From contig JAIEQK010000214.1 in NCBI GenBank assembly GCA_019747795.1, positions 1-34,935 of the forward strand: a stretch of 34,935 bases of DNA, read 5' to 3'. The DNA comes from Gammaproteobacteria bacterium (lineage in GTDB: Bacteria; Pseudomonadota; Gammaproteobacteria; Ga0077536). Both the position numbers and the translations under genes were made by a program. The notes under the pieces are model-generated. The model was not told the DNA's origin. It was given only the letters and a program-made list of their open reading frames with translations, and ran no database searches. Below are positions 16,743 to 18,759 of the stretch, one piece after another; the stretch's first letter is position 1, and every line of letters starts with the position of its first letter.

Positions 16743-17175
16743 GCCAATGCTGCATTGCGACCCCCGAAAGGCTCGCAAGCAAAGGGAGCTTGGGACACGT
16801 AGAGGACGTAGCAGTTCCAAAAAAAGCGTGCTAGGCTCGCCTCGCGTTCGCGCAATAACGATTACGACACCGCTCTTCGAGGTCCTGACCGAGTCCCGCT
16901 CAAAGCCCGCCTGACACGCCGCGCGGTTCATTGCGCGCCCTGTCTTCCCCGGCCCCTCGCGCGACCGCCACTGCAGATTTCGCCAGCTTGATAGCCATCG
17001 TTTCGCCCAAGGCACACGCTGCCGCTTCGCTTTCCGCATTCGAACTTCGTCTTGCATCCGTCATACACACTGCACGCGAGAACCTGGTCCCTTCGGGCCC
17101 GGGCGCTTGCGCCGCAGGTGTTTCAACCGAGGCGTGCGCCTCATTTGTGCCTGGCATCTAACTGGAGAAACCCTG
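16743..17175 (+). other. Long leader region of the RRM protein gene
   Basis: These 433 nt hold no convincing gene. The part nearest the RRM gene is low in purine runs and carries a short perfect hairpin (GGCGC, TT, GCGCC at 17102-17113) and the ribosome site GGAG (17164-17167). A long 5' leader would be in keeping with small cold-inducible RRM proteins in other bacteria. I could not place a confident promoter. A 31-codon frame at 16739-16834 overlapping the previous stop is probably chance. Confidence 0.4.
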
Positions 17176-17475
17176 ATGCAACAGAACAAACTCTACGTCG
17201 GCAACTTCCCCTACTCGGTCAACGAGAACGATCTGCGTGATCTGTTCGCGTCCTATGGCCCGATCGAGGACGTGCGCCTGATCACCGATCGCGAAACCGG
17301 CCGCTCGAAGGGCTTCGCGTTCATCACCTTCGCCACCCAGAGCGCCGCGGAAAGCGCGCTGGAGCAGAACGGCAAGGACATGAAGGGCCGTGCCCTGCGC
17401 GTCAACGTCGCGCAGGACAAGGTCAAGACCGGCGGCGGCGGCGGCGGCCCCCGCAACGATCGTCCGCGCTGGTAA
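17176..17475 (+). CDS. Small RRM-domain RNA-binding protein
   Basis: A 99-residue single RNA recognition motif protein. RNP2 is LYVGNF (6-11) and RNP1 is KGFAFITF (45-52), with all three conserved aromatic positions present. The tail is a Gly-rich stretch (TGGGGGGGPRNDRPRW), a short version of the glycine-rich tail of cyanobacterial and proteobacterial Rbp proteins. Members bind single-stranded RNA and are often induced by cold; role here is inferred. The ATG at 17176 is chosen because GGAG lies eight bases upstream and the domain begins at once. It appears to be monocistronic. Confidence 0.93.
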   Translation: MQQNKLYVGNFPYSVNENDLRDLFASYGPIEDVRLITDRETGRSKGFAFITFATQSAAESALEQNGKDMKGRALRVNVAQDKVKTGGGGGGPRNDRPRW

Positions 17476-17880
17476 AGCGCAGGATGCGCAGGGCGGGCCT
17501 CCACGGGGTCACCGCCAGGCGCCAAGCACGTCCTCGTCGGATGACGATGACGGGGCGATCCAGGGATGAACGACCCGGTTAGATTGCCAAGGCGGATTCA
17601 GAAAGCCGGAGTCCCGCGTCGCGACCGACAGGCCGCGCGCGGCGACTCCGGACTTTCCACGGCACAGGCGAAGGAACGCGGGATCCCGACTTTCCAGGGG
17701 AGAGGCCCGGAGACTTTCCGGGCAAAGAGCATGGCGTTCGTGATTGGCTGCGAACGCTGCATACCACGTTCAGATTCGCCTCCACTGCACCAAACACTCG
17801 ACTGATCGCGCTCCGCGCGCGTTGTCCACCGTGCGTCGGGGAGCGAGAATCCCACGCCTGCATGCAGCTTGGAGAACCCC
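17476..17880. other. Structured intergenic region with GACTTTCC repeats
   Basis: These 405 nt carry no recognisable gene but strong local structure. Arms GAAAGCCGGAGTC (17601-17613) and GACTCCGGACTTTC (17644-17657) are complementary over 13 pairs with one bulged base. CGGGATCCCG (17679-17688) is a perfect palindrome. CCCGGA-GACTT-TCCGGG (17706-17722) is a 6-bp hairpin. GACTTTCC occurs three times (17651, 17688, 17712). The region may hold a terminator for the RRM gene, an untranslated RNA, or an unclassified repeat element. GGAGAA at 17871-17876 is the ribosome site of the next gene. Confidence 0.45.
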
Positions 17881-18759
17881 ATGAGCGTCGAGTACATGCG
17901 GGCCATTCGCGCCCGCTACGAGAGCCTGGGCTACACGCCCTACCGCTGGTTCGAAGCCGACAGCCCACCGCCCTGGACACCGCTGGTGAAGCCGCTCAGC
18001 GCGGCGCGACTGGGCCTGCTGTCGACTTCGGGCGCCTACGCGCTCGGCCAGGCGGCCTACCACTACAAGGACGACACCTCGATTCGCGCCTTGCCGCGCG
18101 ACATCGACGATCGCGACATCCGCTTCTCGCACATCACCGAGAACTACCTGGTGGATCCCAGGCGGGATCCGCACTGCATCCTGCCGCTCGCGCCGCTGCG
18201 CAGGCTCACGCGCGAGGGCGTGGTCGGTGAACTCGCGGAACACGTGTTCAGCTGCATGGGCGGCGTCTATTCGCAGCGGCGCGTGCGCGAGGAAACGGCG
18301 CCCGCGCTGTTGGAGGCGTTCCGGCGGGAACGGGTCGACGCCGCCTTGCTGGTCGCGATGTGACCCGTGTGTCACCAGACCGTGAGTCTGGTCGCACGGC
18401 ACCTCGAAGCGAACGGCATTCCAACGCTGTGCCTGGGCGCGGCGCGTGACATCTTCGAGGCGGGACGACCGCCGCGCGCGGTGTTCGTCGACTATCCGCT
18501 GGGGCACAGCGCCGGTCGGGCCTTCGACGCGCAGGATCAGTACGACGTGGTGAGCGCCGCGCTGCGCGGCTTCGCATCGCTGACGACGCCGGGAGAACTC
18601 CTGACCCTGCCCAATCGCTGGCCGGACGACGCCTGGCGCGCCGAGGCCTCGTCGACCGAAGGCAAGGACACGCGCCAGCCGCGGGACGAGACACCGCAGT
18701 TCCAGTTCCCGGCCGATCGCGAGGCTGCAATCGCAAGCGGAGCGTGGGCGCCAGGCTGA
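17881..18759 (+). CDS. GrdB/PrdB-family protein with predicted selenocysteine 161 (UGA at 18361)
   Basis: A 292-residue product if the in-frame TGA at 18361-18363 is read as selenocysteine. The part before it (SVEYMRAIRARYESLGYTPY, LGLLSTSGAYAL, FSHITENYLVDPRRDPHCI, LPLAPLRRLTREGVVGELA, RVDAALLVAM) and after it (PVCHQTVSLVARHLEANGIP, FVDYPLGHSAGRAFD) are consecutive pieces of one family: glycine/sarcosine/betaine reductase selenoprotein B and D-proline reductase PrdB relatives. From memory, many proteobacterial homologues have C-P-V-C-H-Q-T here; this one would have U-P-V-C, a classic UxxC redox motif. A hairpin suited to SECIS follows. The ATG at 17881 has GGAG six bases upstream. The alternative is a Cys-to-stop mutation (TGC/TGT to TGA) making a pseudogene, but both halves are otherwise undamaged. 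Substrate unknown. No glycine-reductase partner genes and no sel genes are in the window. Confidence 0.8.
18365..18399 (+). promoter_or_regulatory. Candidate bacterial SECIS element
   Basis: ACCAGAC (18374-18380), loop CGTGA (18381-18385) and GTCTGGT (18386-18392) form a perfect 7-bp stem with a 5-nt loop. A lower stem CCGTG (18365-18369) pairs with CACGG (18395-18399) across an asymmetric internal loop. The apical loop begins 17 nt after the UGA and has G as its second base, both as known for bacterial SECIS elements. The element lies inside the coding sequence, as bacterial SECIS do. SelB binding is inferred. Confidence 0.7.

Follow-up and report, generated by a model that had tools for sequence, protein, structure and literature searches.

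A PrdB-like protein of Proteobacteria with an in-frame UGA very probably read as selenocysteine

Introduction

In clostridia, the reductase chemistry to which D-proline reductase belongs is defined by a pyruvoyl cofactor. The available sections of two reviews list D-proline reductase (TIGR04483), with its UxxC motif, as a selenoprotein family (PMC13188914, PMC9312934). As far as the accessible text of each report goes, the Sargasso Sea metagenome of 2005 held 42 Sec forms and one Cys form of PrdB, with UxxC (PMC1088965), and the GOS metagenome of 2008 held 235 Sec and 110 Cys forms (PMC2398784). A 2006 survey, likewise seen in part, counted five proline reductase selenoproteins and names Anaeromyxobacter and Geobacter among the carriers (PMC1794560); the corresponding part of a 2016 survey gives 131 in 110 organisms (PMC5029168). 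In work on the fluoroacetate reductase FarB, the available portion of one paper proposes that a selenolate attacks a small acid (PMC10838667).

Here we analyze a PrdB-like gene in a window (the whole stretch of DNA examined) that makes up the entire contig C286, 34,935 bases long. The genome is 5.94 Mb in 331 contigs and 99% complete. PrdB (TIGR04483; Terrisporobacter petrolearius, Peptoclostridium acidaminophilum) is homologous along most of its length to the predicted protein, whose in-frame UGA lies at the matching place, in U-x-x-C-H. The predicted protein is longer than PrdB by about 50 residues, and whereas Terrisporobacter prdA lies two genes upstream of prdB, no PrdA was found in the window's order.

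Other relatives lie further away. Proteins on alphaproteobacterial plasmids of Roseomonas and Haematobacter, annotated as glycine/sarcosine/betaine reductase selenoprotein B family, are 36-37% identical to it and carry C-P-[VI]-C-H-Q-T; no prd or grd genes are among the features shown within 6 kb of them. They differ in having Cys for Sec, in forming part of a separate clade and in lacking the K-D-D stretch. GrdB, GrdF, GrdH and FarB belong to the same superfamily by weak C-terminal profile matches, FarB being likened by description alone. The GrdB-type proteins are longer (profiles of 431-435 positions) and work with GrdE-type partners. The Sargasso and GOS selenoproteins are likewise called PrdB and have UxxC, a likeness that is again one of description alone.

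Results

The gene and its in-frame UGA

The gene has the following features.

17881..18759, + strand: PrdB-like candidate selenoprotein coding sequence, from translation with UGA as Sec, the PrdB profile and 29 full-length orthologues in the order
17871..17874, + strand: GGAG as read from the sequence, a likely ribosome-binding site with 6 bases between it and the ATG
18361..18363, + strand: in-frame UGA (residue 161), which opens the U-P-V-C motif; TGA in orthologues
18370..18372, + strand: codon of Cys164, partner thiol of UxxC; invariant in the 22-row protein alignment

Translation starts with ATG at 17881 and ends with TGA at 18757-18759. With TGA read as U, positions 17881-18756 give 292 residues and a single internal UGA at residue 161, in the context ...LLVAM-U-PVCHQTVSL.... 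An earlier note, made from the letters alone, had described two open stretches in one frame parted only by the TGA at 18361-18363, a gene that gene callers would split and a UxxC motif. Translation bears this out: standard ORF finding yields two pieces, of 164 and 130 residues, and Cys164 lies three residues past U161. At some loci the frame stays open far upstream (1211, 489 and 389 codons); we took these in-frame extensions, which have no Pfam match, to be chance frames.

Judged by substitution rates, the segment downstream of the UGA is under purifying selection. Over 89 codons, dN/dS ranges from 0.15 to 0.49 in the five pairs computed, values that are rough because dS exceeds 1 in most pairs.

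Orthologues and the selenocysteine column

A match to the protein is present in 30 of the 36 genomes of the window's order. Twenty-nine of these orthologues (window included) are full length and 56-100% identical, and each contains exactly one TGA, which in all 29 falls within the same motif and in the same column. The thirtieth match runs into a contig end ahead of the UGA site. An alphaproteobacterial relative at 56% identity (L010) has TGA at the same column. Because the same TGA recurs across orthologues, a single-base sequencing error is excluded. The order search returned 32 further rows, some partial, 24 with one TGA and 8 without; only the two rows from the window's own genome were read individually.

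These two rows are paralogues at 38% protein identity, each with one TGA in U-P-V-C-H-Q-T:

G000:C246:3995-4780 and G000:C327:40228-40980, strand not stated: own-genome PrdB-like paralogues with in-frame TGA (L012, L013), UPVCHQT

The window's PrdB-like selenoprotein gene is thus no lone oddity, as there are two more in the genome. Elsewhere in it, a 51-residue piece (L105, G000:C294:4015-4167) resembles the N-terminus of the family and contains an in-frame TAA; it is perhaps a gene relic.

We read the codon at this column with a motif pattern that permitted only stop/U or C in first position, and 37 of 39 loci matched. Outside clade I (the clade of the window's protein, below), 23 of 25 homologous loci fit the pattern (U in 4, C in 19); the 25 include both own-genome paralogues and four Cys homologues of the class (L078-L081), which have TGC at the Sec column. 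Four loci (L084, L100, L101, L104) were skipped in this reading as own-genome repeats or a 46-residue fragment. The two loci that failed the pattern, L082 and L083, have U-P-A-C and were left out of the tree. No locus read had another residue: each homologue examined in this way has either Sec or Cys there. The earlier note had placed the UGA at the first Cys of C-P-V-C-H-Q-T, given there as the motif of homologues, and Cys homologues such as P0006 do carry it. L082 and L083 (genomes G393 and G298), with the motif U-P-A-C-T-R-A and its in-frame TGA, form another group of PrdB-like proteins.

A tree of 57 proteins, rooted at the midpoint and subject to a long-branch warning from the program, unites the 30 sequences of clade I, all Sec; their support of 92/89 falls short of the level that the program stars. 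Two groups stand apart from clade I, one of 22 (20 Cys, 2 Sec; support 98/91) and one of three (2 Sec, 1 Cys; support 100/95), and two clostridial PrdB sequences are placed far off. The L012 and L013 paralogues fall into two other clades, both of which also contain Cys forms. L009 was omitted from the alignments and the tree (taken as the same contig as L036), and L057, which ends ahead of the UGA, was left out.

Clade I members were seen only in the window's order and as L010. Among 369 genomes sampled from the class, 8 have a match, and only three matches, all from the window's family (own genome included), reach at least 64% identity. Among 398 genomes of the phylum sample, 17 have a match; those in the tree lie outside clade I, the own genome excepted, and one 46-residue fragment (L100) was left unplaced. 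Matches occur in 24 plasmid records, with none above 37% identity among the 20 matches listed.

A hairpin downstream of the UGA

A bacterial SECIS element is a hairpin that lies shortly past the UGA and has a small apical loop containing a G. Two structures were considered here.

18374..18392, + strand: SECIS-type hairpin, 7-bp stem ACCAGAC/GUCUGGU, loop CGUGA; from folding, inverted repeat, covariation and codon conservation
18365..18399, + strand: full span of the lower stem predicted in the window sequence (18365-18371 pairing with 18393-18399), which is not conserved

RNA folding of 18361-18412 gives the upper stem with its CGUGA loop, plus the lower stem. The hairpin begins 10 nt past the UGA and has a 5-nt loop. 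With its loop CGUGA and 17 nt from UGA to loop, it fits the description above. A hairpin at the place where a bacterial SECIS element should lie is supported both by folding and by orthologue comparison.

The folding energy of the 52-nt segment is by itself unexceptional (z -1.79; 10 of 200 shuffles as good). For the comparison we aligned all 30 sequences (the 29 order orthologues and L010) and counted 24 distinct rows. Bases pair in 98.2% of the upper-stem cells versus 93.8% in shuffles, and 13 cells changed on both sides versus 4.5; none of 500 shuffles reached the observed paired fraction or the count of cells changed on both sides. Sliding the stem by 1-3 columns left at most 38.1% paired. 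Covariation is seen at two pairs (C-G to U-A; G-C to A-U). The number of pairs with both-side change is not above shuffles (172 of 500 as high), nor is the number of further pair types (500 of 500 as high). With the lower stem included, paired cells fall to 83.3% and no additional pair changes on both sides: none of the 7 lower-stem pairs does so, and the outermost of them is intact in 4 of the 24 rows. We rejected the lower stem as part of the signal since it is not kept across orthologues.

Codon use points to the same place. Synonymous-codon identity peaks at codons 165-171, which form the hairpin (0.82 versus a mean of 0.43), and this stretch comes out on top among the 263 seven-codon windows. 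Both paralogues keep the stem and loop letters, and the four Cys homologues L078-L081 lose them.

Selenocysteine machinery

All four genes that the earlier note had proposed to look for, selA, selB, selC and selD, are in the genome, each over its cut-off. The tRNA-Sec scores 62.4 bits (gathering 47), and ARAGORN assigns it the anticodon tca; selA (593.3 bits, cut-off 268) lies directly upstream of selB (418.9 bits, cut-off 242), and selD scores 266.5 bits against a cut-off of 125. The selD match (L026, G000:C281:31694-32524) lies at a contig end and enters the profile at position 38. A second RF01852 match over the cut-off in this genome proved to be tRNA-Ser. At locus L017 (G000:C291, 2138-7010), where selA and selB are adjacent, selC follows about 1.4 kb after selB, and the ORF between selB and selC has an esterase/beta-lactamase fold (PF00144, 179 bits).

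Across the order, selB is above its cut-off in 29 of 36 genomes and a tRNA-Sec of at least 59 bits is found in 32, being absent in G012, G018, G021 and G029. G018 (100% complete) has neither the gene, nor selB over the cut-off, nor a strong tRNA-Sec; G021 (62% complete) is without a strong tRNA-Sec and without the gene; in both genomes, this joint absence of tRNA and gene is as expected. Four genomes (G014, G015, G028, G033) have tRNA-Sec and no gene. Conversely, five have the gene and no selB over the cut-off (G010, G011, G012, G029, G030). Three of these, G010, G011 and G030, have a strong tRNA-Sec, and G011 and G030 miss the selB cut-off because selB lies in two pieces. G012 (81% complete) and G029 (87%) contain the gene but neither selB over the cut-off nor a strong tRNA-Sec. 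We put this down to incomplete assemblies, but it still counts against Sec decoding.

On the sequence evidence, the UGA at 18361 is very probably read as selenocysteine, and Sec insertion at residue 161 is strongly supported in silico.

Family assignment and partner search

The best profile is PrdB (TIGR04483; E 1.8e-33, 115.9 bits against a cut-off of 300), which matches residues 49-266 of a 313-residue reading, or 29-246 of the protein. GrdB-type profiles reach 31-36 bits against cut-offs of 65 to 800 (TIGR01918, 32.4 against 65.45), and Pfam GRDB (PF07355) is narrowly missed at 20 bits against 22. The earlier note's assignment to the GrdB/PrdB family therefore stands as to relationship, but the protein lies outside the PrdB and GrdB equivalogs, whose NCBIfam cut-offs it misses widely. 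With 116 bits against a cut-off of 300, the PrdB label needs narrowing: we place the gene in a conserved, little-studied side branch of the D-proline reductase family.

The note had also described the gene as standing alone. As regards PrdA and GrdE this agrees with our search: PF09338, which we take to cover both GrdE and PrdA (its matches at annotated prdA fit this), was found in none of the 36 order genomes, including the window's own (99% complete), and in both of the two clostridial plasmid records carrying prdB that served as positive control. The GrdA profile PF04723, run without a positive-control genome, matched in 0 of 36. A divergent or unrelated carbonyl partner is conceivable.

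Gene order gives little guidance. In a comparison of 20 of the 28 other orthologous loci, it was conserved only among members of the same genus, and the neighbor groups common to four genera are loosely placed. In the window, an RRM RNA-binding protein gene lies upstream at 17107-17475, conserved in both other genomes of the genus, and a convergent enoyl-CoA hydratase gene follows the selenoprotein gene; across the 20 loci, a HIT-family gene comes directly after the selenoprotein gene at least twice, each time in the same genus. Among 29 neighbor proteins scanned, several had no match at all and no common theme appeared; they include RRM, enoyl-CoA hydratase, nitroreductase, glyoxalase, HIT, SDR, CoA-transferase III, UPF0261 and FAA hydrolase. 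Nor did the 14 loci compared for Cys and Sec homologues of other clades share a theme. With an order limited to the genus and no shared neighbors, we rejected operon context as a guide to function. On a Roseomonas haemaphysalidis plasmid (L120, 6878-8350), a gene annotated as protein adenylyltransferase SelO adjoins the Cys form on the opposite strand.

Predicted structure

An AlphaFold model built from 22 sequences, with residue 161 folded as Cys, has a mean pLDDT of 89.2 and a pTM of 0.90. It places residue 161 between strand 154-158 and helix 162-177, and a helix start after a strand is a usual seat of a reactive thiol or selenol. The protein alignment (16 of the 30 sequences, that is the 29 order orthologues and L010, plus 6 other homologues) also has residues far from the motif that are invariant across its 22 rows: Y5, Y13, Y21, W23, D96, F202, P206-G208 and W247.

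A PDB sequence search gave no chain better than E 0.73, and Foldseek against the PDB gave nothing at E <= 0.001 (best 2.9e-3). The best VIA-align rows are LacI-type and other general alpha/beta folds, the first with Z 8.5 and 6.4 A over 148 residues. Neither gene context nor PDB fold search yielded a clue to the substrate.

Discussion

We consider it likely that the protein is a Sec-containing UxxC reductase that works without a partner. The mechanism we envisage follows homology to PrdB and GrdB, together with established knowledge and the available portions of PMC13188914 and PMC10838667. SelB and tRNA-Sec would insert Sec at the UGA at 18361, directed by the hairpin at 18374-18392, and of this decoding step we are close to certain. 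In the predicted model, Sec would sit at a helix start past a beta strand with Cys three residues on. In a small substrate, the selenolate might then attack either an electrophilic carbon or a bond of disulfide type, after which Cys164 would close an Se-S bond that cellular thiols reset. Such a scheme would resemble the PrdB half of D-proline reductase, minus the pyruvoyl partner PrdA. In this scheme, with no pyruvoyl partner, the enzyme should act on a self-activated substrate, for example a carbonyl compound, and with no PrdA an amino acid held as a Schiff base is an improbable substrate.

The protein might instead be a general thiol-disulfide oxidoreductase, or detoxify peroxides or organo-element compounds, by thioredoxin-type UxxC action with no cleavage of a substrate-carbon bond. 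The UxxC at a helix start in the model would suit such a role, as would the lack of a conserved operon partner across the 20 loci compared. However, the homology is to substrate-specific reductases, and the residues invariant in 22 rows far from the motif suggest a substrate pocket. We regard this role as possible but rather unlikely. It is a narrower form of the partnerless UxxC reductase, with which it overlaps, and does not exclude it. For the partnerless reductase itself we offer one more specific suggestion, tentatively and at somewhat short of even confidence: that this all-Sec clade without PrdA or GrdE, found in 30 of the 36 genomes of its gammaproteobacterial order, is a self-contained selenoenzyme that cleaves a bond in a small metabolite without a pyruvoyl cofactor.

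A genuine D-proline reductase PrdB with an unrecognised PrdA is very improbable. PrdB is the best profile, and the K-D-D and D-x-N-C-x-x-P stretches resemble PrdB when read side by side. Yet the score of 116 bits falls far below the cut-off of 300, whereas a true clostridial PrdB, our control, reaches 422.6; the motif is U-P-V-C-H-Q-T here and U-G-T-C-H-R-S in PrdB; and the profile that detects the partner in both control records is silent in all 36 genomes.

Still less credible is that the UGA is a true stop or marks a broken gene (a pseudogene or sequencing error), leaving two fragments. The two pieces of 164 and 130 residues from ORF finding are what this would predict, but the identical TGA in 29 of 29 full-length orthologues and both paralogues, purifying selection past it, the kept hairpin and the sel genes speak against it, and we rejected it on recurrence, selection and hairpin. 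Last, we dismissed as next to impossible that the real gene is the overlapping opposite-strand ORF at 17770-18507 (245 residues), which is open across 245 codons and has similar ORFs at 42-56% identity in orthologous loci, but in only 8 of 20 of them, is less conserved than the first half of the + strand gene (67-80%, first eight loci listed) and looks like a typical mirror ORF of G+C-rich DNA.

Selenocysteine in this superfamily is not new, as marine PrdB-type UxxC selenoproteins have been reported since 2005; judging by their descriptions, the Sargasso and GOS sets probably include the groups described here. What our evidence adds is an apparently partnerless, all-Sec clade and its setting in a genome with three paralogues. 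In our literature search, which covered few subscription journals, we recognised no paper on a comparable stand-alone protein of PrdB-like type from Proteobacteria, and the available part of PMC12013277 contains nothing on a PrdB-like family. The analysis draws a line between a database label (PrdB, proline reductase) and a group whose substrate is very probably not proline. It also illustrates how genomes of uncultured bacteria hide such selenoprotein genes as two fragments.

Selenium is costly, and Sec is kept in all 30 members examined, so the protein likely performs chemistry to which sulfur is ill suited. Both Sec and Cys forms occur in the two paralogous groups, which therefore provide natural pairs for asking what Sec adds. 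As a separate observation, the clostridial PrdB P0004 (L118, 3550-4272) weakly matches the UGSC family across its Sec motif (22.4 bits, cut-off 125), a sequence match that may be a hint of kinship between the two selenoprotein families.
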